Origin: Costus lasius
Taxonomy: Eukaryota > Streptophyta > Magnoliopsida > Zingiberales > Costaceae
DNA: 64,000 bases
Direction of reading: 5' to 3'
Assembly: GCA_027563935.2 (NCBI GenBank)
Contig: CM050453.2
Coordinates: 85,596,665-85,660,664 of the forward strand
Shown: positions 24,322 through 58,432 of the stretch, in pieces
Position numbering within the stretch: position 1 is the stretch's first letter
Layout: each line of letters begins with the position of its first letter
Program-made: the position numbers and the translations under genes
Notes under the pieces: model-generated
What the model was told of the DNA's origin: nothing
Seen by the model: the letters and a program-made list of their open reading frames with translations, nothing else
Databases searched by the model: none

Positions 24322-24333
24322 TGGTATTAGAGC
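24322..24333 (+). other. Primer-binding site, element C (one mismatch)
   Basis: TGGTATTAGAGC, one C-to-T change from the initiator tRNA-Met complement. Confidence 0.75.
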
Positions 24334-25600: not shown

Positions 25601-25836
25601 CGTGTTGTACCCACTCAGTGGGCACACGCCCAACTATCTTCAGACGGTGTGTGATTACACCTATATGCTACAGAGAAGGGATTTATCGCTTCTCGATGCT
25701 CAGCATAGCATATGGTTGTCCAGGAAGTAGGTCAGGTCAGCTTGACCATATAGGCTACATGTTGAGCATATGACAGCTATATGGAGGCAGCCATCTGAGG
25801 AATCAGAAGCTGTGTTGTACCAACTCAGTTGGCACA
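25601..25836 (+). other. Twin leader hairpins, element C
   Basis: Hairpin 1 (25601-25626) has CCCA-CTCAG-TGGG; hairpin 2 (25811-25836) has CCAA-CTCAG-TTGG. Each is preceded by GTG-TTGTA and followed by CAC, giving an outer stem across a 5-base bulge; in hairpin 1 of C the outer stem is disturbed by CACACG. Confidence 0.6.
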
Positions 25837-26087
25837 GTCTTCTGGATTGCCTAGATGAAGGGGAATCGCACGGGTTGGCGATTGGCATGGATTGCCTACC
25901 AGGGATCAGTGCTTGGGCTCTCTGTGCACCTTATCTCGCTTGAGCGGGACGCGGAGATCAAGTATGAAATCTGGATCCCATCTCACTAAAAGAGTTTTAC
26001 TCTTTCGGACTGTTTTATTGGATTTTCAGTCAGATAAAATAGTGAGAGAAGAATCACTCTTAAGTCCTAGAATGATTCTAACATGGA

Positions 26088-26118
26088 TACTGACCTTGTT
26101 GTTCTTGCTATGTTGTAG
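26088..26118 (+). promoter_or_regulatory. Candidate branch point and 3' splice site, element C
   Basis: TACTGACC near 26088 fits the plant branch consensus CTRAY. A T-rich run and TTGTAG ending at 26118 follow. The same block precedes gag in B and T. Confidence 0.55.
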
Positions 26119-30747: not shown

Positions 30748-31983
30748 TGTTGGGGTATGCCCTTAAGGCTAATGTTTGAGGCCTTGGGATTCTTTCCAGT
30801 ATCATGTATAAACTCTTATGTTTATAAAGGCAATGGTTGTTATTCAGTTTGTTACATTGTCTGCTGCAATAAGTGTACTTCTAAATAATGTCTCAATGCT
30901 GTTCAGCTAGGATGACATGCTATAATGTCCTTAGTCGAGATATCTTGGTGAACATGAGACAGCTACAGGCTTGACACGCTTGTCCAATAAGAACATCCAG
31001 TGGCAAAGGAAACATGTATGCCTAGTGAAGTGGATTCACACTTGTGCTGTGGTTTGGGTGTAGTCTTGGAAGACTCTTTCCTTTATATCGGGAGACAGTG
31101 ATGTGTTGCTAGATACCCCTCACTGATCGTGATAACGTAAGTTATCGTTACCGACATTTAAAGGAAACCCTCAGGGTCGCACAATTTGATGATATGGCTT
31201 ACTTAAGTCAGAACGTGTGGACTGAATTGTTTTGGTTCAATAAAGGGATTTAAACTCTGATTGTAAGTGAGATCTGGTCTGATCATGTTTGATTGATTAG
31301 GGCTTGAGATCGGTAAGCTTCGATCGAGAGAGTTGATGCTAGATCGGTAAGATCAGGAGCATCAGGAGATGGAACGGTTAGATCTTGAACCATTTGGTTC
31401 AGAGAGATCTAGACTATGGCTTGGGCTAATTTAATTTGGTTTTTTGAACCAAATTGAGTTGAGTCGAATTGGCTTGAACCGGTTCAAATATGTGAACGCT
31501 TGGTTCAAGGCTTGATGGCATTTGGGCGTTTTTCATTACATGGGCGCATGGCTTCAAGACTTTCCAATTTTGGAAGTCATGTAACGCCACCTTTGTGATA
31601 ACGGCTCAACGCTTTTGCCTCCTCTTGTCTTGTCGTCTCAAACTTTGGCGAGAGTTGTTCTTCACGCCTTGGAGAGGTTTTTCGACAAGGAAGAGATCTC
31701 ATCTCGATTCCCTTCTAACGATCAAAGAAACTTTGGAGCCTTGCTAGCACAAGGAGCGACAAAGGAGTAGGTCATCTCTCATCTAGTGTGCGTCTTCTAA
31801 GGAGAAGAAGCAATCGATTCTTTGCTTCCAAGCCGCCATCCAATCTAATGGCGTTGGTATGATCCCTTTTAGATCCATTCCATTTATACAAGTTGATCAT
31901 ATGAACTACATGCGATCTTGTTGTTGAAATGCGCCCCCTTTAGGGTTTCACCCCCTTTCGCTCCCCCTTGAAGGGGACTTACA
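30748..31983 (+). repeat. Element B 5' LTR with internal deletion
   Basis: 1,236 bp, starting TGTTGGGGTATGCCC and ending GGGGACTTACA. Compared with the 3' LTR it lacks 438 bp (equivalent of 37947-38384) at a point where both ends read AGC, which suggests a microhomology-mediated deletion. The palindrome GATAACGTAAGTTATC is at 31131-31146. Confidence 0.9.
31848..31858 (+). promoter_or_regulatory. Candidate gag start and 5' splice site in the B LTR
   Basis: ATG-GCG-TTG followed by GTATGA. Spliced to 33809 it would read MAL-IPAATNT and enter gag in phase. The 3' LTR has ATG-GCA-TTG with the same GTATGA at 39274-39288. Confidence 0.55.
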
Positions 31984-31985
31984 AT

Positions 31986-31997
31986 TGGTATCAGAGC
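31986..31997 (+). other. Primer-binding site, element B
   Basis: TGGTATCAGAGC, two bases after the LTR; complement of the initiator tRNA-Met 3' end. Confidence 0.9.
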
Positions 31998-33288
31998 TTT
32001 GGTTCTTGTAGAATCATATGATTGCTTGATGATTTGTGATCCTTGTTTGTGTTTGATAAGTAGATCTAGTAGGAAGCATCTTGCGCATCTACATGTTAAG
32101 TAGTGAAAATACATGATGTATGTTTTTACTCCTTTGCGCATGTATGATGTATGATGGCGCATGTTGATAGTTGTAGTTTTTCTTAAAATACTTAATCACT
32201 TGCGCGCCTCACTAGATCTAAGTGACGCCTGCTATAAACCCTTAGACGGGTTAGTAGGGTTGAAGTCATCCTCTAGGTAAGATCCAACCAGTCTGATCAG
32301 ACCATCTGACAGCCTAGATGGGTCGACCAGATGGCACCTGTGCGCAAGCACGAGGTGGCTATAGGTCGACTGCAGACAGGCGTGTAGCGAGGTCTGATTG
32401 AGACAACCAATGAACACTCTTGAGTCAGGCCCGGGGTTACACCCGCTTGCCAGAACTCATGAAGGTTGTTCAGCCCTTTTGCGCATGCATGGTTGACCAT
32501 TAGGTCGACTCAAGTCAGTTAGGACTTGGTTCATGCAAGGGCAGTGGATCTGACTAGACATGATGAGTGGATCCCTATTAATGGACCGTTGTAAGGTAGT
32601 AGGGCACATAAGACAAATAAAATTGATTCCGATGGGATTTTGAAAATTTTATTTTGTTGATGGATCACATATTGATTGGATGCCATGATGCTTGTTTATT
32701 TCATCTTATGTGGGTTGCCCAATTAATGTGTGCTGTGCTGGGGCCTGCGTGCCTGGATTAAAAATGTAAATGATTATATTTGTGATCTGCGCATCACATT
32801 GTAATTAATTTATTGTGTAATTGACCTTCGTGTCAACCTTGTCTAGATAGATTAAAATGTACTTTTAATCAGACAAGAGCTCAAAGCACACATAATAGAG
32901 GCGCATGCAGCAGTGGCTTGACCAGGTGGGAAGTCTAGGGTTCGACCCTAGAACAGGCGCATTTACCTGGTGGGTGCACCTGAGCTGCAAGGGCGCTTGG
33001 GCCCTGGTCTGGGCCAGATGAGAGGCAAAAGACCCAAGAAGAGCTCAAGTGAAGACTTAAGTTAACTTAAGGTCTTACCTAGGCTTAATGGGCGTTTACC
33101 ACATAAGATCATCATGCTTTCTTTTATTGTTTAAATAATTAGACTTGCATGATTTATTTATCTTCTGCTATCACCATAGGGTTTGCATGATAGTTAAGAA
33201 GATAAAAGACAGTTAAAATCCAACGCTAAAATATCAAGCTCGATAGCCTTCAGACGCGAAACCTCACTGTTCTGACTATCGTTGGAGC

Positions 33289-33314
33289 CGTGTTGTACCC
33301 ACTCAGTGGGCACG
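33289..33314 (+). other. Leader hairpin 1, element B
   Basis: CGTG-TTGTA-CCCA-CTCAG-TGGG-CACG: inner 4-bp stem with loop CTCAG, a 5-base bulge and an outer 4-bp stem. GGA and TCC on either side extend it. Confidence 0.65.
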
Positions 33315-33494
33315 TCCATCTATCTTCAGACGGTGTGTGATTTCACCTGCGTGTTACAGAGAAGGGATTTATCGCTTCTCGTTGCTCAGCATAGCACGTG
33401 GTGGTCCAGGGAGTAGGTCGGGTCAGCTTGACCATGTAGGCTACATATGTGGCGCATATGGTAGCTATATGGAGGCAGCCATCTGTGGGATCAG

Positions 33495-33528
33495 AGACTG
33501 TGTTGTACCAACTCAGTTGGCACAGTCT
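33495..33528 (+). other. Leader hairpin 2, element B
   Basis: AGACTGTG-TTGTA-CCAA-CTCAG-TTGG-CACAGTCT: same architecture as hairpin 1 with an 8-bp outer stem and changed stem bases. Confidence 0.7.
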
Positions 33529-33829
33529 GCTGGATTGCCCAGATGAAGGGGAATCGCACGGGTTGGCGATTGGCAGGGACTGCCTACCAGAAATTAGTGC
33601 TTGTACTCTCTGTGCATCTTATCTCGCCTGAGCGGGACGCGGAGACCAAGTATGAAATCTGGATCCCATCTCACTAAAAGAGTTTTACTCTTTCGGGCTG
33701 TTTTGCTGGATTTTTCAGCCAGATAAAATAGTGAGAAAAGAATCTTTCTTAAGTCCTAGATTGATTCTAAACATTGATACTGACCTTGCTGTTCTTGCAT
33801 TGTTGTAGATTCCTGCAGCAACGAACACC

Positions 33830-37733: not shown

Positions 37734-39409
37734 TGTTGGGGTATGCCCTTAAGGCTAATGTTTGAGGCCTTGGGATTCTTTCCAGTATCATGTATAAACT
37801 CTTATGTTTATAAAGGCAATGGTTGTTATTCAGTTTGTTATATTGTCTGCTGCAATAAGTGTACTTCTGAATAATGTCTCAATGCTGTTCAGCTAGGCTG
37901 ACATGCTATAATGTCCTTAGTCGAGATATCTTGGTGAACATGAGACAGCCTTGATATGATTGAGACTAATATGTGTTCTAATCTTATAGGATGCTTCGAG
38001 CGTGGAATAAGATGTAGACTCATGGGTACATTGGATGTACTGGACAGACCCTACTAGGATATTCAATTGCTTGTCACAATATGAATAATCCTTGTTTGCA
38101 ACAAGTGGCACATGTCCTCTGACTTGAGATCACTTGTGTTTCTAAATGATGATTGTCATTGTTTTAAGGTAGTTCAATATCATTTGAAACATAATGGTTA
38201 TAGACTATCTTGGATAATGATCATGAGTCAGGTTAGGACCCTAGTGATAGATATAGGATTGCCGTCTCCTTGTTCAAGGAGTGTGATGTTCTAAAGGGGC
38301 CCCCCTGAATGAGATGATTGAGAAAGTGTATGGCCATACCCAGGTGACTATGTTCATCTGATCTAATCATGCTCATTATATTGGAGCTACAGGCTTGACA
38401 CACTTGTCCAATAAGAACATCCAGTGGCAAAGGAAACATGTATGCCTAGTGAAGTGGATTCACACTTGTGCTGTGGTTTGGGTGTAGTCTTGGAAGACTC
38501 TTTCCTTTATATCGGGAGACAGTGATGTGTTGCTAGATACCCCTCACTGATCGTGATAACGTAAGTTATCGTTACCGACATTTAAAGGAAACCCTCAGGG
38601 TCGCACAATTTGATGATATGGCTTACTTAAGTCAGATCGTGTGGACTGAATTGTTTTGGTTCAATTTAAAGGGATTTAAACTCTGATTGTAAGTGAGATC
38701 TGGTCTGATCATGTTTGATTGATTAGGGCTTGAGATCGGTAAGCTTCGATCGAGAGAGTTGATGCTAGATCGGTAAGATCAGGAGCATCAGGAGATGGAA
38801 CGGTTAGATCTTGAACCATTTGGTTCAGAGAGATCTAGACTATGGCTTGGACTAATTTAATTTGGTTTTTTGAACCAAATTGAGTTGAGTCGAATTGGCT
38901 TGAACCGGTTCAAATATGTGAACGCTTGGTTCAAGGCTCGATGGCATTTGGGCGTTTTTCATTACATGGGCGCATGGCTTCAAGACTTTCCAATTTTGGA
39001 AGTCATGTAACGCCACCTTTGTGATAACGGCTCAACGCTTTTGCCTCCTCTTGTCTTGTCGTCTCAAACTTTGGCGAGAGTTGTTCTTCACGCCTTGGAG
39101 AGGTTTTTCGACAAGGAAGAGATCTCATCTCGATTCCCTTCTAACGATCAAAGAAACTTTGGAGCCTTGCTAGCACAAGGAGCGACAAAGGAGTAGGTCA
39201 TCTCTCATCTAGTGTGCGTCTTCTAAGGAGAAGAAGCAATCGATTCTTTGCTTCCAAGCCGCCATCCAATCTAATGGCATTGGTATGATCCCTTTTAGAT
39301 CCATTCCATTTATACAAGTTGATCTTATGAACTACATGCGATCTTGTTGTTGAAATGCGCCCCCTTTAGGGTTTCACCCCCTTTCGCTCCCCCTTGAAGG
39401 GGACTTACA
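37734..39409 (+). repeat. Element B 3' LTR
   Basis: 1,676 bp, full length, from TGTTGGGGTATGCCC to GGGGACTTACA; palindrome GATAACGTAAGTTATC at 38555-38570. Confidence 0.92.
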
Positions 39410-41777: not shown

Positions 41778-43510
41778 TGTTGGGGTATGCCCTTAAGGCT
41801 AATGTTTGAGGCCTTGGGATTGTATTAGTATCATGTAATAAACTCTTAAGTTTATAAAGGCATGGTTATTATTCAGGTTGTTACCTTGTCTGCTGTAATA
41901 AGTGTACTTCTGAATACTGTCTCAAAGCTGTTCAGCTAGGCTGACAGGCTATATGTCCTTAGTCGAGATATCTTGGTGAACATGAGACAGCCTTGATATG
42001 ATTGAGACTAATATGAGTGCTAATCTTATAGGATGCTTCGAGCATGGAATAAGACGTAGACTCATGGGTACATTGGATGTACTGGACAGACCCTACTGGG
42101 ATATTCCATTGCTTGTCACAATGTGAATGATCCTTGTAAGCAGCAAGTGGCACATGTCCTCTGACTTGAGATCACTTGTGTTTCTGAATGATGATTGTCA
42201 TTGTCTTAAGGTAGTTCAATATCATTTGAAACATAATGATTATAGACTATCTTGGATGGTGAGCTTGAATCAGGTTAGGGCACTAGTGATAGACATAGGA
42301 TTGCCGTCTCCTTGTTTAAGGAGTGTAGTGTTCTAAGGGCCCCCCTATATGAGATGATTGAGATAGTGTATGGCCATACCCAGATGACTATGTGCATCTG
42401 ATCTAATCATGCTCATCGTATTGGAGTTACAAGCTTGACCCGCTTGTCCAATAAGAACATCCAGTGGCAAAGGACACATGTATGCCTTGTGAATTGAGTC
42501 ACACTTGTGCTATGGTTTGGGTGTAGTCTTGGAAGACTCTTTCCTTTATATCGGGAGACAGTGATGTGTTGCTAGATACCCCTCACTGATCGTGATAACG
42601 TAAGTTATCGTTACCGACATTTAAAGGAAACCCTCAGGGTCGCACAATTTGGTGATATGGCTTCCTTAAGTCAGATCGTGTGGACTGAATTGTTTTGGTT
42701 CAGTTTAAAGAGATTTAATCTCTGATTGTAAGTGAGATCTGGTCTGATCATGTTTGATTGATTAGAGCTTTAGATCGGTAAGCTTCGATCGAGAGAGATG
42801 ATGCTAGATCGATGCGATCAGAAGCGTCAGATGATGAATGGTCAGATCTAGGACCTTGGGGTCTAATTTGATCTAGACTTAATTTATGGGCTGATTTGGT
42901 TTCGCTATTGAACCAAGGATATTGAACCGGCTCATGGGTTGAGCGCTTGGTTCAAGAGGGAGAAGAGGTTGCGTTTGGTTCATGGAAACATGAACGCCAA
43001 CTCTTAATCGTTGCCAATTTTGGAAAGTTCCAAAAGCATAACGCATATGCGTTCATGGCTTGATGTCTCTCTAATGCTTTTCGGTTTTGTTTCTTGGACG
43101 TGTTTTGGAACGGCTTGCTCGAGAGGAAGGCATCGTTCTTGCGCCAAGGAAGTAGAGCTCTCGAAAAGAAGGAAGCCCTTTTTCATCTAATCTCCTAGAC
43201 ACGGTTGAAAAAGCTTGGCAATCTTGCTAGCACAAGAGTTGCGCAAGGAGGAAGCTTTCATCCCTTGTGTGTGATTTCTTTGGAGAAGATCCCTTCGATT
43301 TTTCTTCTTCCAAGCCGCACCTTCCCATGGCCATGGTATTGAATCTCTCACTTGTTATTCAAGTTGATTATATGAAAGTATAGAATGCGATCTTATGTGG
43401 AAACCCTAATTCCGCTGCTATGAGAATGCAACATATGACTTGCGCCCCCCTCATGAAAGGGGTTCTTCTCACAATAGGTTTTGCGCTCCCCTCATGAAAG
43501 GGTTCCATCA
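41778..43510 (+). repeat. Array T LTR1
   Basis: 1,733 bp from TGTTGGGGTATGCCC to GGGTTCCATCA. It contains GATAACGTAAGTTATC at 42594-42609 and a near-repeat of CCCTCATGAAAGGG in its last 60 bp. Confidence 0.95.
43327..43337 (+). promoter_or_regulatory. Candidate gag start and 5' splice site, T unit 1
   Basis: CCC-ATG-GCC-ATG followed by GTATTG. The ATG has G at +4, a good start context. Splicing 43335 to 45313 yields MAM-IPAATNT-MSFN, in phase with gag. Confidence 0.6.
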
Positions 43511-43512
43511 AT

Positions 43513-43525
43513 TGGTATCAGAGCC
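43513..43525 (+). other. Primer-binding site, T unit 1
   Basis: TGGTATCAGAGCC, two bases after LTR1; matches the initiator tRNA-Met complement. Confidence 0.92.
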
Positions 43526-45312
43526 ATCTATACTTTTTCATATGATTGCTTGCGGTTCTAATGAGTAGTTCATCATGTTTGATCCATGAATATGTTGGTG
43601 AATAGATCTAAAGGTGATTGCTTACATGCCGAAACCTACATGCTAGTTTAGCACTTAGATGTATGTTTCTTCATGAGTTGCGCAAGATGTATGTTTCTTC
43701 ATGAGTTGCGCATGTTGTTATGTTGGCGCATGATAAGTATGTTGAATGGTTGAATAATATTTCATCATAATCTTATACCTACTTGCGCGCAAACATTTAG
43801 ATCTATATGCATCTACTATAAACCCTTAGATGGGTTGATGGGGCTGAAGTCACCTCTAGGTTAGATCCATTAGTCTGATCAGACCATCTGACAGCTCAGA
43901 TGGGTTAACCTGATAGCACCTATGCGCAAGCACAAGGTGGCTATAGGTTGACTGCATCTAGGGCGTGTAGCGAGGTCTGGTTGAGACACTACTGAACACA
44001 CTTGAGTTAGGCCCGGGGTCACACCCGCTTGCCAAAACTCATGGGGGTAGTTCAGCCCTTGGCGCATGCATGGTTGACCATTAGGTCAACTCGGGTCAGT
44101 TAGGACTCGGTGCATGCAAGGGCAAAGGATCTAACTAGATGGATGAGTGGATCCCCATCAATGCACCATTGTAAGGTTGTAGGGCTCATAAGGAAATTAA
44201 AATTGATGCCATGGGGTTTTCAAAACTTTTAATTTCAAGATGATTGGATCACATGTTGATTGAACCATATGCTTGTCTATTTAGTCTTATGTGGGTTGCC
44301 CAATTGTGTGCTGTGCTGGGGCCTGCGTGCCTGGACTTAAAAAAATTGTAAATTAATTTGTGATCTGCGAATCACATTGTACTTAATTTATAATATGTTG
44401 TTGACCTGCGAGTCAATCTTGTCTAGATAGATCAAATGTACTTTGATTAGACAAGAACAAAGGCACACATCCAAGTGGGGCATTCACCTGGTGGTGCACC
44501 TGAGGTGCTCTTGGCGCTAGGGCACTGGGTTGGACCAGATGAGATGCAATGAAGCTCAAGTGAAGACTTAAGTAATATTAAGGTCTTACTAGGGTTCATG
44601 GGCTTTTACCACATAAGATCATGCTTTCTACTTATTGCTAATAATTAGAATTGCATATTTATGTTTATCTTCTGCTATAGCCATAGGACATGCCTGATAG
44701 TAAGAAGATAAAAGACCGTTAAAATCCAACGCTAACATATCAAGCTCGTAAGCCTTCTGACGCGAAACCTCACCTTTCTGACTATCGTTGGAGCCGTGTT
44801 GAACCCACTCAGTGGGCACGTCCATCTATCTTCAGACGGTGCTGGATTTCACCTGCGTGTTACAGAGTTGGGATTTATCCCCTCTCGTTGCTCAGCATAG
44901 CACGTGGTGGTCCAGGGAGTAGGTCAGGTCAGCTTGACCATGTAGACTACATATGTGGCGCATATGGTAGCACATAGAGGCAGCCATCTCTGGGATCAGA
45001 GACTGTGTTGTACCAACTCAGTTGGCACAGTCTGCTGGATTGCCAAGATGAAGGGGAATCGCACGGGTTGGCGATTGGCTGGGAGAGCCTACCAGAAACT
45101 AGTGCTTGTCATCTCTGTGCATCTTATCTCGCCTGAGCGGGACGCGGAGACCAAGAATGAAATCTGGATCCCATCTCACTAAAAGAGTGTTACTCTTTCG
45201 GACTGTTTACTGGATTTTTCAGTCAGACAAAATAGTGAGAAAAGAATCTTTCTTAAGTCCTGGATTGATTCTGAAACATTGATACTAACCTTGCTGTTCT
45301 TGCTTGTTGTAG
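43526..45312 (+). other. T unit 1 leader (part of candidate intron), non-coding
   Basis: 1.8 kb without a supported gene. Hairpin 1 is at 44795-44820 (CGTG-TTGAA-CCCA-CTCAG-TGGG-CACG), hairpin 2 at 45000-45033 (AGACTGTG-TTGTA-CCAA-CTCAG-TTGG-CACAGTCT). It ends with TACTAAC (45283-45289), a pyrimidine-rich run and TTGTAG (AG at 45311-45312). Confidence 0.65.
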
Positions 45313-45333
45313 ATTCCTGCAGCAACGAACACC

Positions 45334-48300
45334 ATGAGCTTCAATGTGCGATCCCTACTGGAAAGGGAGAAGTTTGCTGGGCCGAACTTCTCTGACTGGT
45401 TCGGACACCTTAAGATCGTTCTTAAGGCAGAGAGGAAACTGTATGTCCTCGAGATGGCGATACCGCCGCAGCCCGCTCCGAACGCCGCAAGGGCGGTTCG
45501 GGATGCCTATGAAAAGCACGTCAATGATAGCATTGATGTCGCTTGCCTGATGCTAGCGTCTATGACGCCACCGCTGCAGCGTCAGCATGAGGATATGTCG
45601 GCTATAGAAATTATAGCGAACCTCAAGATGCTGTATGCTGCACAGGCGAGGACAGAACGCTATAATCTGACAAAGCTCTTCTTTCAGAGCAAACTGGCTG
45701 AGGGGAGCCCAGTAGGAGCTCACGTGCTCAAGATGATTGGGCACAAGGAGGCTCTGGAGAAACTGGGGCATACCGTCAACCAGGAGCTTGCTGTAGATAT
45801 TATTCTGCAGTCTCTTCCGCCTTCTTTCGATGCGTTCATCATTAACTTTAATATGAACAAAATCGATTGTACGCCGGCAGAGCTGCTGAATATGCTCTTG
45901 ACTACTGAGGAAACTCTGAAGGGCAAGCCTTCAACCTCTGTCTTAATGGTTCCTTTTAGGAACAAGAAGAAGGGGAAGAAGGGCAAGGCCCCTGTCAAGA
46001 ATTACAGCAAGGCCCTGAAACAGAAGGTGAAGCGGTCGAAGGACAACAGGTGTTTCCACTGTGGCCAGCTGGGTCACTGGAAAAAGGACTGTAAAGCGCT
46101 CCAAGGAGATAAGAGGGGAAGCATCGCTTCTGGCTCAGGTATATACGTGACGGAAGTCATGGTTTCATCTTCTTCTATATCATGGGTGTTGGACACTGCA
46201 TGTGGAGTTCACATTTGTTCAAATGTGCAGGAACTCAAGAGAAGAAGGCAGGTGGGACAGCATGAGGTAGACCTACGCGTTGGAAACGGGGCACGGGTTG
46301 CTGCGGTTGCTGTAGGAGACTATTTCATTACTTTACCATCTGGCATTGTATTAGAATTAAACAATTGTTATTTTGTACCCAGTATTACCAAGAATATTAT
46401 CTCTATTCCTGCTCTTGTCAGGAAAGGATTTGCCTTTGAATGCAAGATTTCAAAGTGTATTTTGACTTATGATAATATTGTGTATGCCACTGGTTCAATT
46501 AACAATGGGTTATTCATGTTGGACATGGAATATTCTATACAAAACATTGATAATAAGAAAGCCAAGTATGCTGATGACAGCACCTTGCTATGGCATAGTC
46601 GTTTAGGCCATATAAACGAGAAGCGCATTAAGCGGTTGCATGAACATGGACTGCTGGGATCATTCTCCTATGAGGAGATTGATACATGCAAAGCTTGTTT
46701 GATGGGTAAAATGACGAAGTCTCCTTTTCTTCACAAAGGTCAGAGGACTTCAGGTTTACTTGACCTTATACACAGTGATGTGTGTGGGCCATTTAGTAAA
46801 CATGCCAGAGGTGGCTATCAGTACTTCATTACCTTTACTGATGATTTCAGTAGGTATGGGTATGTCTATTTGATGAGACATAAAAGTGAATCTTTTGACA
46901 AGTTCAAAGAGTTCAAAAATGAAGTACAAAATCAGTTAGGCAGAAATATCAAGGCACTTCGTTCTGATCGAGGTGGTGAATACCTAAGTCATGCATTTAC
47001 TGACTATCTGAAAGAGTGTGGGATTATCTCACAGCTCACTCCGCCAGGAACACCGCAATGGAATGGTGTGTCCGAGAGGAGAAATAGAACGTTACTTGAT
47101 ATGGTTCGTTCTATGATGAGTCAGGCTACTCTTCCATACTCCTTTTGGGGTTTTGCACTGGAAACAGCTGCAAAGGTACTAAACCGAGTGCCATCCAAGG
47201 CAGTTTCAAAGACGCCATATGAGTTATGGTACGGAAAACAGCCTAGCTTGACGTTTATCAGGATCTGGGGTTGCGAGGCTTATGTCAAAAAGCTCGCCTC
47301 TGGGAAACTAGAGAGCAGATCTGATAAATGTATCTTTGTCGGTTACCCTAAGGAAACTAAGGGTTATTATTTCTACGATCCCAAAGAGAACAAGATATTT
47401 GTTGCTCGGACGGCCATATTTCTTGAGAAGGAGTTTCTTCTGCAAGAGGCCAGTGGGAGAGAAATAAAGCTGGATGAGATTCCAGAGGAAGGACAAAGTA
47501 GTCAGGCAGAGTTGGATGTGCCTGAGCCAGTAGATCAGGTTACTGAACAACCTGAGGCTCAGATATCACGGGAACCGCGAAGATCGGGTAGGATCCGTCG
47601 ACAGCCTGAGCGCTATGACGGAGTCTACATCATTGATAATGATGAACCCCTAACTTATGCGGATGCGGTCAGTGGACCGGAGTCAGCTAGATGGCTTGAT
47701 GCTATGCGAGCCGAGATGGACTCCATGTCAGATAACCAAGTCTGGGATTTGGTTGATCCGCCTCCGGGAGTAATCCCTATAGGCTGTAAATGGATCTTCA
47801 AGAAGAAGATTGACATGGATGGTAACGTGGTTACCTATAAAGGCAGGCTAGTTGCGAAAGGTTTCAAACAAATCTACGGGATAGATTATGATGAAACTTT
47901 CTCTCCTGTAGCCATGTTTAAGTCTATTCGGATTCTTTTCGCGATAGCTGCATATTACGATTATGAGATCTGGCAGATGGATGTGAAAACAGCTTTCCTT
48001 AATGGAAATCTGGATGAGGATGTGTATATGACACAACCGGAAGGTTTCAACAATCCAGCAGATCGTCATAAAATATGCAAGTTAAAGAAGTCCATATATG
48101 GACTTAAACAAGCATCAAGAAGCTGGAATATTCGTTTTGATGAATCAATCTCTGAGTTTGGTTTCATCAAGAACGAAGATGACCCGTGTGTATATAAGAG
48201 GTTTAGTGGGAGCGTGATTACATTCCTAATCCTCTACGTCGATGATATCTTGATCATTGGAAATGATATTCCTGAACTGCATGCTGTTAAGGCATGGTTA

Positions 48301-49218
48301 GGAAAATGTTTCCAGATGAAAGATTTAGGAGAAGCAGCCTATGTACTAGGTGTGAAGATCTACAGAGATAGATCTAAAAGGCTTCTCGGGCTGTGCCAGA
48401 GTACTTACATCGATAAGGTCCTGGAGAGATTCCATTTAGAGAATTCTAAACGTGGATATCTTCCAGTCAGACATGGTCTGAATCTTTCGAAGAGTCAGTG
48501 TCCACAAACACAGACTGAGAAAGATGAAATGGACAATACGCCTTATGCTTCGGCTATTGGGTCCATTATGTATGCGATGTTGTGTACTCGCCCAGACGTC
48601 GCTTACGGGTTAAGCGTGACCAGTCGATTCCAAAGTAATCCAGGTTTGGCGCACTGGATTGCGGTCAAGAACATTTTAAAATATCTGCGGAGGACCAAAG
48701 ATATGTTCTTGATATATGGTGGTCAGGAAGAACTCAGTATAGAGGGATATACTGACGCTTCGTTCCAGTCGGACCAGGATGATTTCCGATCGCAATCAGG
48801 CTATGTTTTTAGCTTGAATGGTGGAGCAGTGGTGTGGAAGAGTTTCAAACAGTCAACTGTTGCTGATTCCACAACAGAAGCCGAGTATGTTGCAGCCTCG
48901 GAAGCATCTAAGGAGGCAGTGTGGATTCGTAAGTTCGTGAGAGAACTTGGTGTCGTTCCTTCGAGTGCAGATCCTTTGGTTATCTTCTGTGATAACACTG
49001 GAGCCATCGCACAAGCAAAGGAACCGCGGTCGCACCAGAAGTCCAAGCACATACAGAGACGGTTTCACTTGATCCGGGAGATCATTGATCGAGGCGAGAT
49101 CAAAATATGCAAGGTTCATACAGATGACAATCTGGCAGACCCACTTACCAAGCCTCTGGCGCAGCAGAAGCATGTGAAGCACTGTAATAATATGGGTTTG
49201 AGATTTCTCAACCATTAG
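45334..49218 (+). CDS. gag-pol: Angela-like copia Gag-Pol polyprotein, unit 1
   Basis: An intact 1,294-codon frame. Gag spans residues 1-~235 with a Lys-rich tail, and the CCHC knuckle CFHCGQLGHWKKDC is near 239. The protease motif WVLDTACGVH is near 285. GAG-pre-integrase WHSRLGHINEKR is near 420. The integrase core has HSDVCGPF (about 480), SDRGGEYL (about 544) and WNGVSERRNR (about 575). Reverse transcriptase runs from CKWIFKKKID (about 818) to the catalytic YVDD near 968. Copia RNase H has YTDAS (about 1139) and TTEAEY (about 1180). The order protease-integrase-RT marks Ty1/copia. The ATG at 45334 is the annotated start; the alternative spliced start at 43327 would add ten residues (1,304 in total). 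The particle it builds copies element RNA into DNA and integrates it. Confidence 0.95.
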   Translation: MSFNVRSLLEREKFAGPNFSDWFGHLKIVLKAERKLYVLEMAIPPQPAPNAARAVRDAYEKHVNDSIDVACLMLASMTPPLQRQHEDMSAIEIIANLKMLYAAQARTERYNLTKLFFQSKLAEGSPVGAHVLKMIGHKEALEKLGHTVNQELAVDIILQSLPPSFDAFIINFNMNKIDCTPAELLNMLLTTEETLKGKPSTSVLMVPFRNKKKGKKGKAPVKNYSKALKQKVKRSKDNRCFHCGQLGHWKKDCKALQGDKRGSIASGSGIYVTEVMVSSSSISWVLDTACGVHICSNVQELKRRRQVGQHEVDLRVGNGARVAAVAVGDYFITLPSGIVLELNNCYFVPSITKNIISIPALVRKGFAFECKISKCILTYDNIVYATGSINNGLFMLDMEYSIQNIDNKKAKYADDSTLLWHSRLGHINEKRIKRLHEHGLLGSFSYEEIDTCKACLMGKMTKSPFLHKGQRTSGLLDLIHSDVCGPFSKHARGGYQYFITFTDDFSRYGYVYLMRHKSESFDKFKEFKNEVQNQLGRNIKALRSDRGGEYLSHAFTDYLKECGIISQLTPPGTPQWNGVSERRNRTLLDMVRSMMSQATLPYSFWGFALETAAKVLNRVPSKAVSKTPYELWYGKQPSLTFIRIWGCEAYVKKLASGKLESRSDKCIFVGYPKETKGYYFYDPKENKIFVARTAIFLEKEFLLQEASGREIKLDEIPEEGQSSQAELDVPEPVDQVTEQPEAQISREPRRSGRIRRQPERYDGVYIIDNDEPLTYADAVSGPESARWLDAMRAEMDSMSDNQVWDLVDPPPGVIPIGCKWIFKKKIDMDGNVVTYKGRLVAKGFKQIYGIDYDETFSPVAMFKSIRILFAIAAYYDYEIWQMDVKTAFLNGNLDEDVYMTQPEGFNNPADRHKICKLKKSIYGLKQASRSWNIRFDESISEFGFIKNEDDPCVYKRFSGSVITFLILYVDDILIIGNDIPELHAVKAWLGKCFQMKDLGEAAYVLGVKIYRDRSKRLLGLCQSTYIDKVLERFHLENSKRGYLPVRHGLNLSKSQCPQTQTEKDEMDNTPYASAIGSIMYAMLCTRPDVAYGLSVTSRFQSNPGLAHWIAVKNILKYLRRTKDMFLIYGGQEELSIEGYTDASFQSDQDDFRSQSGYVFSLNGGAVVWKSFKQSTVADSTTEAEYVAASEASKEAVWIRKFVRELGVVPSSADPLVIFCDNTGAIAQAKEPRSHQKSKHIQRRFHLIREIIDRGEIKICKVHTDDNLADPLTKPLAQQKHVKHCNNMGLRFLNH

Positions 49219-49238: not shown

Positions 49239-50971
49239 TGTTGGGGTATGCCCTTAAGGCTAATGTTTGAGGCCTTGGGATTGTATTAGTATCATGTAAT
49301 AAACTCTTAAGTTTATAAAGGCATGGTTATTATTCAGGTTGTTACCTTGTCTGCTGTAATAAGTGTACTTCTGAATACTGTCTCAAAGCTGTTCAGCTAG
49401 GCTGACAGGCTATATGTCCTTAGTCGAGATATCTTGGTGAACATGAGACAGCCTTGATATGATTGAGACTAATATGAGTGCTAATCTTATAGGATGCTTC
49501 GAGCATGGAATAAGACGTAGACTCATGGGTACATTGGATGTACTGGACAGACCCTACTGGGATATTCCATTGCTTGTCACAATGTGAATGATCCTTGTAA
49601 GCAGCAAGTGGCACATGTCCTCTGACTTGAGATCACTTGTGTTTCTGAATGATGATTGTCATTGTCTTAAGGTAGTTCAATATCATTTGAAACATAATGA
49701 TTATAGACTATCTTGGATGGTGAGCTTGAATCAGGTTAGGGCACTAGTGATAGACATAGGATTGCCGTCTCCTTGTTTAAGGAGTGTAGTGTTCTAAGGG
49801 CCCCCCTATATGAGATGATTGAGATAGTGTATGGCCATACCCAGATGACTATGTGCATCTGATCTAATCATGCTCATCGTATTGGAGTTACAAGCTTGAC
49901 CCGCTTGTCCAATAAGAACATCCAGTGGCAAAGGACACATGTATGCCTTGTGAATTGAGTCACACTTGTGCTATGGTTTGGGTGTAGTCTTGGAAGACTC
50001 TTTCCTTTATATCGGGAGACAGTGATGTGTTGCTAGATACCCCTCACTGATCGTGATAACGTAAGTTATCGTTACCGACATTTAAAGGAAACCCTCAGGG
50101 TCGCACAATTTGGTGATATGGCTTCCTTAAGTCAGATCGTGTGGACTGAATTGTTTTGGTTCAGTTTAAAGAGATTTAATCTCTGATTGTAAGTGAGATC
50201 TGGTCTGATCATGTTTGATTGATTAGAGCTTTAGATCGGTAAGCTTCGATCGAGAGAGATGATGCTAGATCGATGCGATCAGAAGCGTCAGATGATGAAT
50301 GGTCAGATCTAGGACCTTGGGGTCTAATTTGATCTAGACTTAATTTATGGGCTGATTTGGTTTCGCTATTGAACCAAGGATATTGAACCGGCTCATGGGT
50401 TGAGCGCTTGGTTCAAGAGGGAGAAGAGGTTGCGTTTGGTTCATGGAAACATGAACGCCAACTCTTAATCGTTGCCAATTTTGGAAAGTTCCAAAAGCAT
50501 AACGCATATGCGTTCATGGCTTGATGTCTCTCTAATGCTTTTCGGTTTTGTTTCTTGGACGTGTTTTGGAACGGCTTGCTCGAGAGGAAGGCATCGTTCT
50601 TGCGCCAAGGAAGTAGAGCTCTCGAAAAGAAGGAAGCCCTTTTTCATCTAATCTCCTAGACACGGTTGAAAAAGCTTGGCAATCTTGCTAGCACAAGAGT
50701 TGCGCAAGGAGGAAGCTTTCATCCCTTGTGTGTGATTTCTTTGGAGAAGATCCCTTCGATTTTTCTTCTTCCAAGCCGCACCTTCCCATGGCCATGGTAT
50801 TGAATCTCTCACTTGTTATTCAAGTTGATTATATGAAAGTATAGAATGCGATCTTATGTGGAAACCCTAATTCCGCTGCTATGAGAATGCAACATATGAC
50901 TTGCGCCCCCCTCATGAAAGGGGTTCTTCTCACAATAGGTTTTGCGCTCCCCTCATGAAAGGGTTCCATCA
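49239..50971 (+). repeat. Array T LTR2 (shared middle LTR)
   Basis: 1,733 bp, no difference from LTR1 seen. It serves as 3' LTR of unit 1 and 5' LTR of unit 2: a polypurine tract precedes it and a primer site follows it. It carries GATAACGTAAGTTATC at 50055-50070 and the ATG/donor site at 50788-50798. Confidence 0.95.
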
Positions 50972-50973
50972 AT

Positions 50974-50986
50974 TGGTATCAGAGCC
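50974..50986 (+). other. Primer-binding site, T unit 2
   Basis: TGGTATCAGAGCC, as in unit 1. Confidence 0.92.
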
Positions 50987-52773
50987 ATCTATACTTTTTC
51001 ATATGATTGCTTGCGGTTCTAATGAGTAGTTCATCATGTTTGATCCATGAATATGTTGGTGAATAGATCTAAAGGTGATTGCTTACATGCCGAAACCTAC
51101 ATGCTAGTTTAGCACTTAGATGTATGTTTCTTCATGAGTTGCGCAAGATGTATGTTTCTTCATGAGTTGCGCATGTTGTTATGTTGGCGCATGATAAGTA
51201 TGTTGAATGGTTGAATAATATTTCATCATAATCTTATACCTACTTGCGCGCAAACATTTAGATCTATATGCATCTACTATAAACCCTTAGATGGGTTGAT
51301 GGGGCTGAAGTCACCTCTAGGTTAGATCCATTAGTCTGATCAGACCATCTGACAGCTCAGATGGGTTAACCTGATAGCACCTATGCGCAAGCACAAGGTG
51401 GCTATAGGTTGACTGCATCTAGGGCGTGTAGCGAGGTCTGGTTGAGACACTACTGAACACACTTGAGTTAGGCCCGGGGTCACACCCGCTTGCCAAAACT
51501 CATGGGGGTAGTTCAGCCCTTGGCGCATGCATGGTTGACCATTAGGTCAACTCGGGTCAGTTAGGACTCGGTGCATGCAAGGGCAAAGGATCTAACTAGA
51601 TGGATGAGTGGATCCCCATCAATGCACCATTGTAAGGTTGTAGGGCTCATAAGGAAATTAAAATTGATGCCATGGGGTTTTCAAAACTTTTAATTTCAAG
51701 ATGATTGGATCACATGTTGATTGAACCATATGCTTGTCTATTTAGTCTTATGTGGGTTGCCCAATTGTGTGCTGTGCTGGGGCCTGCGTGCCTGGACTTA
51801 AAAAAATTGTAAATTAATTTGTGATCTGCGAATCACATTGTACGTAATTTATAATATGTTGTTGACCTGCGAGTCAATCTTGTCTAGATAGATCAAATGT
51901 ACTTTGATTAGACAAGAACAAAGGCACACATCCAAGTGGGGCATTCACCTGGTGGTGCACCTGAGGTGCTCTTGGCGCTAGGGCACTGGGTTGGACCAGA
52001 TGAGATGCAATGAAGCTCAAGTGAAGACTTAAGTAATATTAAGGTCTTACTAGGGTTCATGGGCTTTTACCACATAAGATCATGCTTTCTACTTATTGCT
52101 AATAATTAGAATTGCATATTTATGTTTATCTTCTGCTATAGCCATAGGACATGCCTGATAGTAAGAAGATAAAAGACCGTTAAAATCCAACGCTAACATA
52201 TCAAGCTCGTAAGCCTTCTGACGCGAAACCTCACCTTTCTGACTATCGTTGGAGCCGTGTTGAACCCACTCAGTGGGCACGTCCATCTATCTTCAGACGG
52301 TGCTGGATTTCACCTGCGTGTTACAGAGTTGGGATTTATCCCCTCTCGTTGCTCAGCATAGCACGTGGTGGTCCAGGGAGTAGGTCAGGTCAGCTTGACC
52401 ATGTAGACTACATATGTGGCGCATATGGTAGCACATAGAGGCAGCCATCTCTGGGATCAGAGACTGTGTTGTACCAACTCAGTTGGCACAGTCTGCTGGA
52501 TTGCCAAGATGAAGGGGAATCGCACGGGTTGGCGATTGGCTGGGAGAGCCTACCAGAAACTAGTGCTTGTCATCTCTGTGCATCTTATCTCGCCTGAGCG
52601 GGACGCGGAGACCAAGAATGAAATCTGGATCCCATCTCACTAAAAGAGTGTTACTCTTTCGGACTGTTTACTGGATTTTTCAGTCAGACAAAATAGTGAG
52701 AAAAGAATCTTTCTTAAGTCCTGGATTGATTCTGAAACATTGATACTAACCTTGCTGTTCTTGCTTGTTGTAG
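50987..52773 (+). other. T unit 2 leader (part of candidate intron), non-coding
   Basis: Copy of 43526-45312 with one change seen (G at 51844). Hairpins are at 52256-52281 and 52461-52494; acceptor AG ends at 52773. Confidence 0.65.
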
Positions 52774-52794
52774 ATTCCTGCAGCAACGAACACC

Positions 52795-55700
52795 ATGAGC
52801 TTCAATGTGCGATCCCTACTGGAAAGGGAGAAGTTTGCGGGGCCGAACTTCTCTGACTGGTTCGGACACCTTAAGATCGTTCTTAAGGCAGAGAGGAAAC
52901 TGTATGTCCTCGAGATGGCGATACCGCCGCAGCCCGCTCCGAACGCCGCAAGGGCGGTTCGGGATGCCTATGAAAAGCACGTCAATGATAGCATTGATGT
53001 CGCTTGCCTGATGCTAGCGTCTATGACGCCACCGCTGCAGCGTCAGCATGAGGATATGTCGGCTATAGAAATTATAGCGAACCTCAAGATGCTGTATGCT
53101 GCACAGGCGAGGACAGAACGCTATAATCTGACAAAGCTCTTCTTTCAGAGCAAACTGGCTGAGGGGAGCCCAGTAGGAGCTCACGTGCTCAAGATGATTG
53201 GGCACAAGGAGGCTCTGGAGAAACTGGGGCATACCGTCAACCAGGAGCTTGCTGTAGATATTATTCTGCAGTCTCTTCCGCCTTCTTTCGATGCGTTCAT
53301 CATTAACTTTAATATGAACAAAATCGATTGTACGCCGGCAGAGCTGCTGAATATGCTCTTGACTACTGAGGAAACTCTGAAGGGCAAGCCTTCAACCTCT
53401 GTCTTAATGGTTCCTTTTAGGAACAAGAAGAAGGGGAAGAAGGGCAAGGCCCCTGTCAAGAATTACAGCAAGGCCCTGAAACAGAAGGTGAAGCGGTCGA
53501 AGGACAACAGGTGTTTCCACTGTGGCCAGCTGGGTCACTGGAAAAAGGACTGTAAAGCGCTCCAAGGAGATAAGAGGGGAAGCATCGCTTCTGGCTCAGG
53601 TATATACGTGACGGAAGTCATGGTTTCATCTTCTTCTATATCATGGGTGTTGGACACTGCATGTGGAGTTCACATTTGTTCAAATGTGCAGGAACTCAAG
53701 AGAAGAAGGCAGGTGGGACAGCATGAGGTAGACCTACGCGTTGGAAACGGGGCACGGGTTGCTGCGGTTGCTGTAGGAGACTATTTCATTACTTTACCAT
53801 CTGGCATTGTATTAGAATTAAACAATTGTTATTTTGTACCCAGTATTACCAAGAATATTATCTCTATTCCTGCTCTTGTCAGGAAAGGATTTGCCTTTGA
53901 ATGCAAGATTTCAAAGTGTATTTTGACTTATGATAATATTGTGTATGCCACTGGTTCAATTAACAATGGGTTATTCATGTTGGACATGGAATATTCTATA
54001 CAAAACATTGATAATAAGAAAGCCAAGTATGCTGATGACAGCACCTTGCTATGGCATAGTCGTTTAGGCCATATAAACGAGAAGCGCATTAAGCGGTTGC
54101 ATGAACATGGACTGCTGGGATCATTCTCCTATGAGGAGATTGATACATGCAAAGCTTGTTTGATGGGTAAAATGACGAAGTCTCCTTTTCTTCACAAAGG
54201 TCAGAGGACTTCAGGTTTACTTGACCTTATACACAGTGATGTGTGTGGGCCATTTAGTAAACATGCCAGAGGTGGCTATCAGTACTTCATTACCTTTACT
54301 GATGATTTCAGTAGGTATGGGTATGTCTATTTGATGAGACATAAAAGTGAATCTTTTGACAAGTTCAAAGAGTTCAAAAATGAAGTACAAAATCAGTTAG
54401 GCAGAAATATCAAGGCACTTCGTTCTGATCGAGGTGGTGAATACCTAAGTCATGCATTTACTGACTATCTGAAAGAGTGTGGGATTATCTCACAGCTCAC
54501 TCCGCCAGGAACACCGCAATGGAATGGTGTGTCCGAGAGGAGAAATAGAACGTTACTTGATATGGTTCGTTCTATGATGAGTCAGGCTACTCTTCCATAC
54601 TCCTTTTGGGGTTTTGCACTGGAAACAGCTGCAAAGGTACTAAACCGAGTGCCATCCAAGGCAGTTTCAAAGACGCCATATGAGTTATGGTACGGGAAAC
54701 AGCCTAGCTTGACGTTTATCAGGATCTGGGGTTGCGAGGCTTATGTCAAAAAGCTCGCCTCTGGGAAACTAGAGAGCAGATCTGATAAATGTATCTTTGT
54801 CGGTTACCCTAAGGAAACTAAGGGTTATTATTTCTACGATCCCAAAGAGAACAAGATATTTGTTGCTCGGACGGCCATATTTCTTGAGAAGGAGTTTCTT
54901 CTGCAAGAGGCCAGTGGGAGAGAAATAAAGCTGGATGAGATTCCAGAGGAAGGACAAAGTAGTCAGGCAGAGTTGGATGTGCCTGAGCCAGTAGATCAGG
55001 TTACTGAACAACCTGAGGCTCAGATATCACGGGAACCGCGAAGATCGGGTAGGATCCGTCGACAGCCTGAGCGCTATGACGGAGTCTACATCATTGATAA
55101 TGATGAACCCCTAACTTATGCGGATGCGGTCAGTGGACCGGAGTCAGCTAGATGGCTTGATGCTATGCGAGCCGAGATGGACTCCATGTCAGATAACCAA
55201 GTCTGGGATTTGGTTGATCCGCCTCCGGGAGTAATCCCTATAGGCTGTAAATGGATCTTCAAGAAGAAGATTGACATGGATGGTAACGTGGTTACCTATA
55301 AAGGCAGGCTAGTTGCGAAAGGTTTCAAACAAATCTATGGGATAGATTATGATGAAACTTTCTCTCCTGTAGCCATGTTTAAGTCTATTCGGATTCTTTT
55401 CGCGATAGCTGCATATTACGATTATGAGATCTGGCAGATGGATGTGAAAACAGCTTTCCTTAATGGAAATCTGGATGAGGATGTGTATATGACACAACCG
55501 GAAGGTTTCAACAATCCAGCAGATCGTCATAAAATATGCAAGTTAAAGAAGTCCATATATGGACTTAAACAAGCATCAAGAAGCTGGAATATTCGTTTTG
55601 ATGAATCAATCTCTGAGTTTGGTTTCATCAAGAACGAAGATGACCCGTGTGTATATAAGAGGTTTAGTGGGAGCGTGATTACATTCCTAATCCTCTACGT

Positions 55701-56679
55701 CGATGATATCTTGATCATTGGAAATGATATTCCTGAACTGCATGCTGTTAAGGCATGGTTAGGAAAATGTTTCCAGATGAATGATTTAGGAGAAGCAGCC
55801 TATGTACTAGGTGTGAAGATCTACAGAGATAGATCTAAAAGGCTTCTCGGGCTGTGCCAGAGTACTTACATCGATAAGGTCCTGGAGAGATTCCATTTAG
55901 AGAATTCTAAACGTGGATATCTTCCAGTCAGACATGGTCTGAATCTTTCGAAGAGTCAGTGTCCACAAACACAGACTGAGAAAGATGAAATGGACAATAC
56001 GCCTTATGCTTCGGCTATTGGGTCCATTATGTATGCGATGTTGTGTACTCGCCCAGACGTCGCTTACGGGTTAAGCGTGACCAGTCGATTCCAAAGTAAT
56101 CCAGGTTTGGCGCACTGGATTGCGGTCAAGAACATTTTAAAATATCTGCGGAGGACCAAAGATATGTTCTTGATATATGGTGGTCAGGAAGAACTCAGTA
56201 TAGAGGGATATACTGACGCTTCGTTCCAGTCGGACCAGGATGATTTCCGATCGCAATCAGGCTATGTTTTTAGCTTGAATGGTGGAGCAGTGGTGTGGAA
56301 GAGTTTCAAACAGTCAACTGTTGCTGATTCCACAACAGAAGCCGAGTATGTTGCAGCCTCGGAAGCATCTAAGGAGGCAGTGTGGATTCGTAAGTTCGTG
56401 AGAGAACTTGGTGTCGTTCCTTCGAGTGCAGATCCTTTGGTTATCTTCTGTGATAACACTGGAGCCATCGCACAAGCAAAGGAACCGCGGTCGCACCAGA
56501 AGTCCAAGCACATACAGAGACGGTTTCACTTGATCCGGGAGATCATTGATCGAGGCGAGATCAAAATATGCAAGGTTCATACAGATGACAATCTGGCAGA
56601 CCCACTTACCAAGCCTCTGGCGCAGCAGAAGCATGTGAAGCACTGTAATAATATGGGTTTGAGATTTCTCAACCATTAG
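52795..56679 (+). CDS. gag-pol: Angela-like copia Gag-Pol polyprotein, unit 2
   Basis: A second intact 1,294-codon frame with the same domain order and motif positions as unit 1. The only protein change seen is Lys to Asn at residue 996 (codon at 55780), shortly after the YVDD catalytic box of reverse transcriptase in the segment CFQM-x-DLGEAAYVLG; B also has Lys there. Silent changes are at 52839, 54696 and 55338. The spliced-start alternative would use 50788-50796 and 52774. No nonsense codon separates it from potential activity, but the effect of the Asn is unknown. Confidence 0.95.
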   Translation: MSFNVRSLLEREKFAGPNFSDWFGHLKIVLKAERKLYVLEMAIPPQPAPNAARAVRDAYEKHVNDSIDVACLMLASMTPPLQRQHEDMSAIEIIANLKMLYAAQARTERYNLTKLFFQSKLAEGSPVGAHVLKMIGHKEALEKLGHTVNQELAVDIILQSLPPSFDAFIINFNMNKIDCTPAELLNMLLTTEETLKGKPSTSVLMVPFRNKKKGKKGKAPVKNYSKALKQKVKRSKDNRCFHCGQLGHWKKDCKALQGDKRGSIASGSGIYVTEVMVSSSSISWVLDTACGVHICSNVQELKRRRQVGQHEVDLRVGNGARVAAVAVGDYFITLPSGIVLELNNCYFVPSITKNIISIPALVRKGFAFECKISKCILTYDNIVYATGSINNGLFMLDMEYSIQNIDNKKAKYADDSTLLWHSRLGHINEKRIKRLHEHGLLGSFSYEEIDTCKACLMGKMTKSPFLHKGQRTSGLLDLIHSDVCGPFSKHARGGYQYFITFTDDFSRYGYVYLMRHKSESFDKFKEFKNEVQNQLGRNIKALRSDRGGEYLSHAFTDYLKECGIISQLTPPGTPQWNGVSERRNRTLLDMVRSMMSQATLPYSFWGFALETAAKVLNRVPSKAVSKTPYELWYGKQPSLTFIRIWGCEAYVKKLASGKLESRSDKCIFVGYPKETKGYYFYDPKENKIFVARTAIFLEKEFLLQEASGREIKLDEIPEEGQSSQAELDVPEPVDQVTEQPEAQISREPRRSGRIRRQPERYDGVYIIDNDEPLTYADAVSGPESARWLDAMRAEMDSMSDNQVWDLVDPPPGVIPIGCKWIFKKKIDMDGNVVTYKGRLVAKGFKQIYGIDYDETFSPVAMFKSIRILFAIAAYYDYEIWQMDVKTAFLNGNLDEDVYMTQPEGFNNPADRHKICKLKKSIYGLKQASRSWNIRFDESISEFGFIKNEDDPCVYKRFSGSVITFLILYVDDILIIGNDIPELHAVKAWLGKCFQMNDLGEAAYVLGVKIYRDRSKRLLGLCQSTYIDKVLERFHLENSKRGYLPVRHGLNLSKSQCPQTQTEKDEMDNTPYASAIGSIMYAMLCTRPDVAYGLSVTSRFQSNPGLAHWIAVKNILKYLRRTKDMFLIYGGQEELSIEGYTDASFQSDQDDFRSQSGYVFSLNGGAVVWKSFKQSTVADSTTEAEYVAASEASKEAVWIRKFVRELGVVPSSADPLVIFCDNTGAIAQAKEPRSHQKSKHIQRRFHLIREIIDRGEIKICKVHTDDNLADPLTKPLAQQKHVKHCNNMGLRFLNH

Positions 56680-56699: not shown

Positions 56700-58432
56700 T
56701 GTTGGGGTATGCCCTTAAGGCTAATGTTTGAGGCCTTGGGATTGTATTAGTATCATGTAATAAACTCTTAAGTTTATAAAGGCATGGTTATTATTCAGGT
56801 TGTTACCTTGTCTGCTGTAATAAGTGTACTTCTGAATACTGTCTCAAAGCTGTTCAGCTAGGCTGACAGGCTATATGTCCTTAGTCGAGATATCTTGGTG
56901 AACATGAGACAGCCTTGATATGATTGAGACTAATATGAGTGCTAATCTTATAGGATGCTTCGAGCATGGAATAAGACGTAGACTCATGGGTACATTGGAT
57001 GTACTGGACAGACCCTACTGGGATATTCCATTGCTTGTCACAATGTGAATGATCCTTGTAAGCAGCAAGTGGCACATGTCCTCTGACTTGAGATCACTTG
57101 TGTTTCTGAATGATGATTGTCATTGTCTTAAGGTAGTTCAATATCATTTGAAACATAATGATTATAGACTATCTTGGATGGTGAGCTTGAATCAGGTTAG
57201 GGCACTAGTGATAGACATAGGATTGCCGTCTCCTTGTTTAAGGAGTGTAGTGTTCTAAGGGCCCCCCTATATGAGATGATTGAGATAGTGTATGGCCATA
57301 CCCAGATGACTATGTGCATCTGATCTAATCATGCTCATCGTATTGGAGTTACAAGCTTGACCCGCTTGTCCAATAAGAACATCCAGTGGCAAAGGACACA
57401 TGTATGCCTTGTGAATTGAGTCACACTTGTGCTATGGTTTGGGTGTAGTCTTGGAAGACTCTTTCCTTTATATCGGGAGACAGTGATGTGTTGCTAGATA
57501 CCCCTCACTGATCGTGATAACGTAAGTTATCATTACCGACATTTAAAGGAAACCCTCAGGGTCGCACAATTTGGTGATATGGCTTCCTTAAGTCAGATCG
57601 TGTGGACTGAATTGTTTTGGTTCAGTTTAAAGAGATTTAATCTCTGATTGTAAGTGAGATCTGGTCTGATCATGTTTGATTGATTAGAGCTTTAGATCGG
57701 TAAGCTTCGATCGAGAGAGATGATGCTAGATCGATGCGATCAGAAGCGTCAGATGATGAATGGTCAGATCTAGGACCTTGGGGTCTAATTTGATCTAGAC
57801 TTAATTTATGGGCTGATTTGGTTTCGCTATTGAACCAAGGATATTGAACCGGCTCATGGGTTGAGCGCTTGGTTCAAGAGGGAGAAGAGGTTGCGTTTGG
57901 TTCATGGAAACATGAACGCCAACTCTTAATCGTTGCCAATTTTGGAAAGTTCCAAAAGCATAACGCATATGCGTTCATGGCTTGATGTCTCTCTAATGCT
58001 TTTCGGTTTTGTTTCTTGGACGTGTTTTGGAACGGCTTGCTCGAGAGGAAGGCATCGTTCTTGCGCCAAGGAAGTAGAGCTCTCGAAAAGAAGGAAGCCC
58101 TTTTTCATCTAATCTCCTAGACACGGTTGAAAAAGCTTGGCAATCTTGCTAGCACAAGAGTTGCGCAAGGAGGAAGCTTTCATCCCTTGTGTGTGATTTC
58201 TTTGGAGAAGATCCCTTCGATTTTTCTTCTTCCAAGCCGCACCTTCCCATGGCCATGGTATTGAATCTCTCACTTGTTATTCAAGTTGATTATATGAAAG
58301 TATAGAATGCGATCTTATGTGGAAACCCTAATTCCGCTGCTATGAGAATGCAACATATGACTTGCGCCCCCCTCATGAAAGGGGTTCTTCTCACAATAGG
58401 TTTTGCGCTCCCCTCATGAAAGGGTTCCATCA
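56700..58432 (+). repeat. Array T LTR3
   Basis: 1,733 bp with one difference from LTR1/LTR2 seen (A at 57532, just after the GATAACGTAAGTTATC palindrome at 57516-57531). The ATG/donor site is at 58249-58259. Confidence 0.95.

Follow-up and report, generated by a model that had tools for sequence, protein, structure and literature searches.

We analysed a 64,000-nt stretch of the Costus lasius genome (GenBank assembly GCA_027563935.2, contig CM050453.2, positions 85,596,665 to 85,660,664 of the forward strand; hereafter the window, with positions counted from its first letter). It contains several copies of one Copia-type family of long terminal repeat (LTR) retrotransposons, here called T, B, C and D. 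T is a tandem array (LTR-internal-LTR-internal-LTR) with a single target duplication (GTACG); its two units, T1 and T2, of 7461 bases each, differ at five positions and have open frames in both, and its first and third LTRs differ at one. The T LTRs have the ends TGTTGG...CATCA, and the primer binding site TGGTATCAGAGC sits two bases past the LTR end. The encoded domains follow the order Retrotran_gag_2, zf-CCHC, gag_pre-integrs, rve and RVT_2. T is thus a Ty1/Copia element, both by its gag, its zinc knuckle and an integrase placed ahead of the reverse transcriptase, and by its LTRs, LTR-adjoining primer site and target duplication. An earlier note on this DNA, made from its letters, had likened the family to Angela, a lineage that includes BARE-1 (PMC6317226).

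Features of the Copia-type family in the window (a slash marks a putative splice site, a caret a predicted junction)
Feature	Position	Strand	Remarks
T, whole array	41778-58432	+	GTACG flanks both sides; self-comparison, ends and flanks compared
T first LTR	41778..43510	+	1733 bp; self-comparison
T putative exon 1 ahead of start codon	43189..43326	+	ATG-free; conserved in T, B, C, D
T1 LTR start codon and first codons	43327..43335	+	ATG-GCC-ATG (ATGGCCATG); donor GTATTG from 43336
T1 putative leader intron	43336..45312	+	1977 nt; 43335^45313
T1 primer binding site	43513..43524	+	inside putative intron; self-comparison
T1 putative branch point	45283..45289	+	TACTAAC (B and C: TACTGAC)
T1 putative acceptor	45307..45312	+	TTGTAG; TAG is an in-frame stop ahead of gag
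T1 gag-pol open frame	45313..49218	+	1301 codons, starting at acceptor; in-frame gag ATG 45334
T1 BARE1-intron counterpart	46139..46230	+	CAG/GTAT...CAG/GA; 92 nt
T2 start codon to putative intron end	50788..52773	+	start codon at 50788, donor after 50796, intron through 52773; 1977 nt; 50796^52774
T2 gag-pol open frame	52774..56679	+	1301 codons
T2 BARE1-intron counterpart	53600-53691		92 nt
T third LTR donor block	58249..58260	+	ATGGCCATGGTA
B	about 30961-39410	+	5' LTR without its first part
B start codon to putative intron end	31848..33808	+	ATG-GCG-TTG then GTATGA; donor after 31856, intron through 33808; 1952 nt; 31856^33809
B BARE1-intron counterpart	34635-34726		92 nt
B 3' LTR donor block	39274..39285	+	ATGGCATTGGTA
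C	22645 to about 27084	+	incomplete (cut off)
C start codon to putative intron end	24189..26118	+	ATG-GCC-ATG then GTAACA; donor after 24197, intron through 26118; 1921 nt; 24197^26119
C BARE1-intron counterpart	26954-27042		89 nt
D LTR	about 61247-59632	-	
D LTR donor block	59731..59742	-	ATG-GCA-ATG then GTA

This family probably carries a facultative spliceosomal leader intron, with its donor inside the LTR and its acceptor directly adjoining the gag frame. Such a gag intron, starting just after an LTR start codon and taking out primer site and leader, had been proposed in the earlier note. The letters and positions given there for donor, branch point, acceptor and gag in T1, T2, B and C were all correct; the 1,977 bases described as the distance to TACTAAC are the intron length. 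Comparison of the copies and of more distant elements makes the leader intron the best-supported reading, because conservation drops at the donor edge, an alanine codon varies at its wobble position, the leader is loaded with ATGs, and acceptor-like sites precede gag in three distant relatives.

On the donor side, the string ATGGCNNTGGTA (ATG-GCN-[AT]TG then GTA) occurs seven times in the window, each time at the 3' end of an LTR of the family (7/7), against 0.20 occurrences expected, and none of 100 shuffles reached seven. Of these LTRs, three belong to T, two to B and one each to C and D, which makes four insertions; D keeps the donor side, as the earlier note had stated. An alignment of the T, B, C and D LTRs shows 74 invariant columns out of 160 between about 43189 and 43342, and only 0-4 per bin of 20 over the roughly 230 nt that precede this stretch. 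Past the donor, invariant columns drop to 4 and then 2 of 20, before recovering to 9 and then 7 of 20 around 43364-43402. Within the 12-nt donor block, 10 columns are invariant, and the two variable ones fall on the wobble base of the alanine codon and on the A/T position of [AT]TG. Between pairs of LTRs the block is 83-100% identical and the following 80 columns 53-73%. This pattern fits a putative short coding exon ending at the donor. A promoter element could account for the conserved island, less easily for the wobble variation. The string CTTCCAAGCCGC (43307-43318 and equivalent sites) is also exact in all seven LTRs, 9-11 bases upstream of the LTR ATG.

On the acceptor side, each of the four internal regions, which represent three insertions, has TACTRAC, an AG-free pyrimidine-rich run and TTGTAG just ahead of gag, directly followed by ATTCCTGCAGCAACGAACACC, from which C differs by one base. 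The putative branch A of T (45288) lies 24 nt ahead of the end of the acceptor AG, and in T, B and C alike the interval from branch to acceptor is free of AG. Ranked by weight matrix among all AGs, the acceptor comes first of 167 in T, third of 175 in B and fourth of 170 in C, and in each it alone among the four best AGs has a CTRAY branch. T, B and C thus carry the signals of a candidate plant intron: GT donor, CTRAY branch, AG-free run and AG acceptor. The acceptor TAG is also the upstream in-frame stop that bounds the gag frame in 4/4 copies (stop-to-stop frames start at 45313, 52774, 33809 and 26119). Joining the predicted exons puts the LTR start codon in phase with gag in every copy, with the fused N termini MAM-IPAATNT (T), MAL-IPAATNT (B) and MAM-IPTATNT (C); C has lost the gag ATG and kept LTR ATG, donor and acceptor. 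The agreement of phase, donor, branch and acceptor claimed for four copies stands, except that the separate copies with both donor and acceptor number three, the T1 and T2 units belonging to a single insertion.

To look beyond the window, we scanned bacterial genome records with a profile; of 49 matching stretches, three encode a relative, with 36-38% identity (L001, L002 and L003). They are plant-type Copia sequences that presumably contaminate the Labilibacter, Streptomyces and Geminicoccus genome records in which they were found. A fourth, L004, matched solely at the zinc knuckle and was excluded before acceptors were counted. All three relatives have an acceptor-like site 0-4 nt ahead of the gag ATG: TTTATTTCAG then ATG in L001, TTCTTATTTTCAG then AAAAATG in L002 and TTTTCTATTGTAG then ATG in L003, ranking 1/22, 2/87 and 2/166, respectively; a CTRAY branch was found in L001. 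Under local shuffling, single-copy acceptor p-values were 0.044 (T), 0.105 (B), 0.08 (L001), 0.013 (L002) and 0.009 (L003); C, whose gag ATG is lost, was left out of these statistics. Fisher combination of T with the three relatives gave p = 0.00028 from shuffles and 0.00014 from leader windows, and the relatives without T gave 0.0008 and 0.004. None of 117 internal in-frame ATGs in the T, B, L001 and L002 frames reached the T acceptor score.

Possible donors were also seen in two of these relatives. The L002 LTR has a TATA box (TATAAATA) at 6744, is ATG-free from 6728 to 6990 and offers the candidate AGG/GTAATA after 6969, about 130 nt before the LTR end (primer site at 7102); AAG/GTGAAT at 6851 outscores it, and LTR and acceptor lie at opposite contig ends. 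In L003, ATGAAG/GTATCT (46-51) shares the phase of the acceptor, though the donors at 121 and 233 are stronger; this relative showed no recognisable primer site. Among named protein relatives, MA or MS often starts the sequence just ahead of the shared part; none of 190 proteins from two protein searches starts with M-x-IP-A/T, so the fused N terminus finds no outside support. N-terminal extensions ending in FQM (P0105, P0108, P0111 and P0139) would fit TTTCAG/ATG and were left uncounted, being known from protein alone; P0012, P0118 and P0262 do not fit. Grass relatives outside the window did not turn up: no grass-named entry appeared among 104, 110 and 155 proteins (120 of the last listed; many entries nameless), and scans for close relatives in genome and viral contigs yielded none. 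The exact acceptor string had no match in viral contigs, nor had the LTR in plasmids or gag in plasmids and phages.

The main alternative is that the leader is never spliced: ribosomes would reach the ATG at 45334 on unspliced RNA by shunting or by internal entry and make Gag from there, with the conserved LTR block being a promoter or start-site element. Ribosomes are known to shunt past leader upstream reading frames in plant pararetroviruses (PMC5902531), and capped unspliced BARE RNA has been reported on polysomes, where "unspliced" refers to the gag/protease intron (PMC3735527). Such ribosomes would have to pass 49-60 ATGs between LTR ATG and gag ATG (LTR ATGs included). In T these are distributed so that 43189-43326 has none, the putative intron 58 and the strip from acceptor to gag ATG none; the putative introns of B and C contain 48 and 55. 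Reading unspliced RNA from the LTR ATG gives peptides of 18 (T), 4 (B), 24 (C) and 6 (D) amino acids, and we rejected a conserved upstream peptide on this ground. The longest ATG-free gap of each LTR adjoins the LTR ATG upstream (253 nt in T, 269 in B, 144 in C and 277 in D; other gaps in these LTRs are at most 93 nt), and the T leader also has one of 250. Whole-LTR shuffles gave such a gap with P = 0.032 (T), 0.017 (B), 0.576 (C) and 0.007 (D), and shuffles of the zone only gave no ATG with P = 0.17, 0.10, 0.33 and 0.14, so the gap evidence is suggestive only. Translation from unspliced RNA also leaves unexplained the wobble variation, the loss of conservation where GTA begins and an in-phase frame that stays open as far as the acceptor, as well as the acceptor-like sites of distant relatives, and we consider it unlikely.

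A plain 5'-untranslated-region intron, in which the pre-gag acceptor is used with another main donor, or with the gag ATG as start, and the LTR ATG is a bystander, appears less likely still. It would suit L001-L003, where the gag ATG directly follows the acceptor and a start codon in exon 1 is unneeded. It does not account for the spacing from ATG-GCN-[AT]TG to GTA, kept in four insertions amid indels and with wobble variation, for a joined frame in phase in every copy, or for C, which has no gag ATG. Chance, through the common ancestry of few copies and frequent short motifs, with a phase agreement that luck gives one time in three and modest single-copy p-values, is very improbable, given LTRs only 42-72% pairwise identical just upstream, against the donor block's 83-100%, and agreement from distant relatives.

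Several points nevertheless weigh against a leader intron that is spliced from the LTR. The donors are mediocre (weight-matrix ranks 8/152 in T, 11/158 in B and 8/162 in C), with better-scoring ones downstream in the leader, which favours the 5'-untranslated-region intron. T, B and C conserve the entire pre-gag strip, which makes conservation of the acceptor nothing special, as translation without splicing would have it. No CTRAY branch was found ahead of the L002 and L003 acceptor-like sites, the independent copies are few, and the whole case is one of sequence comparison.

If the leader intron is real, transcripts would begin ahead of the LTR ATG, and the spliceosome would link the LTR donor to the acceptor abutting the gag frame, a single splice taking out primer site, leader and upstream ATGs together. 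In the spliced mRNA, the first ATG would open Met-Ala-(Met/Leu)-Ile-Pro-Ala-Ala-Thr-Asn-Thr fused to Gag(-Pol). Because the primer site lies within the putative intron, we infer a division between spliced mRNA and unspliced genome, in which RNA escaping splicing would retain the primer site and be packaged; mediocre donors would suit such partial splicing. More tentatively, an LTR-donor leader intron may be an old device, widespread in plant Copia elements: Gag-Pol would be made solely from RNA without the primer site and copying would use solely unspliced RNA, so that one splice separates coding from replication, the family of the window having its start codon in the LTR exon. The proposed splice would jointly answer how translation proceeds despite a 2-kb leader with about 50-60 ATGs and how mRNA and genome are kept apart. 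It would also mean that the Gag start codon and N terminus are wrongly placed in this family, and that leader-primed cap-site or RT-PCR assays detect unspliced RNA only. The earlier note knew of no description of this intron, and we likewise found none in the open-access literature searched, including passages of PMC3735527, PMC2576258, PMC10291200, PMC12786077, PMC6317226 and PMC5902531; subscription papers on EVADE, Bagy2 and Ogre splicing fell outside this scope.

The earlier note had also pointed out that BARE elements use distinct RNA pools. The splice published for barley BARE1 is a different one, a facultative 104-nt intron at the gag/protease border, within the coding frame, that yields a Gag-only RNA (PMC3735527). 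Its counterpart motifs are present at the gag end of all four window copies, which thus have a candidate BARE1-type intron; its removal would bring a frame stop after 11 codons, and B carries an earlier stop inside gag. This second intron could yield a Gag-only mRNA, as published for BARE1. Elsewhere in the window, a Gypsy-type element (198-10917) is flanked by ATCAG at either end and has two LTRs of 3110 bp that do not differ; its gag-pol is open except for in-frame TGA (3927-3929) and TAG (4647-4649) codons, which may reflect young decay or readthrough.

In most retroviruses, one unspliced RNA serves as genome and as mRNA for Gag-Pol; splicing whose donor precedes the primer site occurs, for example, in HTLV-1 and foamy viruses. 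The proposed intron would resemble such splicing in having a donor in R/U5 and in yielding spliced RNA that lacks the primer site and cannot be copied in the normal way. The retrovirus-like division of labour suggested in the earlier note is nonetheless inexact, since the window family would make Gag-Pol from spliced RNA. In rice tungro bacilliform virus, the P4 RNA uses a start codon in the leader. There too, a leader splice connects a short upstream frame to a remote viral frame, although this is a pararetrovirus and its spliced RNA expresses P4 (PMC5902531), not the capsid-polymerase frame. Among LTR retrotransposons, transcripts of Ogre, EVADE and Drosophila copia are partly spliced (PMC6317226, PMC12786077, PMC3735527); in the passages cited, these introns lie within gag-pol or remove parts of pol, and not the leader. 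BARE1 shares with the window family a Copia organisation and a long leader, and would also share facultative splicing that divides RNA classes, whereas the leader intron proposed here would be ~2 kb long, have its donor in the LTR and remove the primer site.
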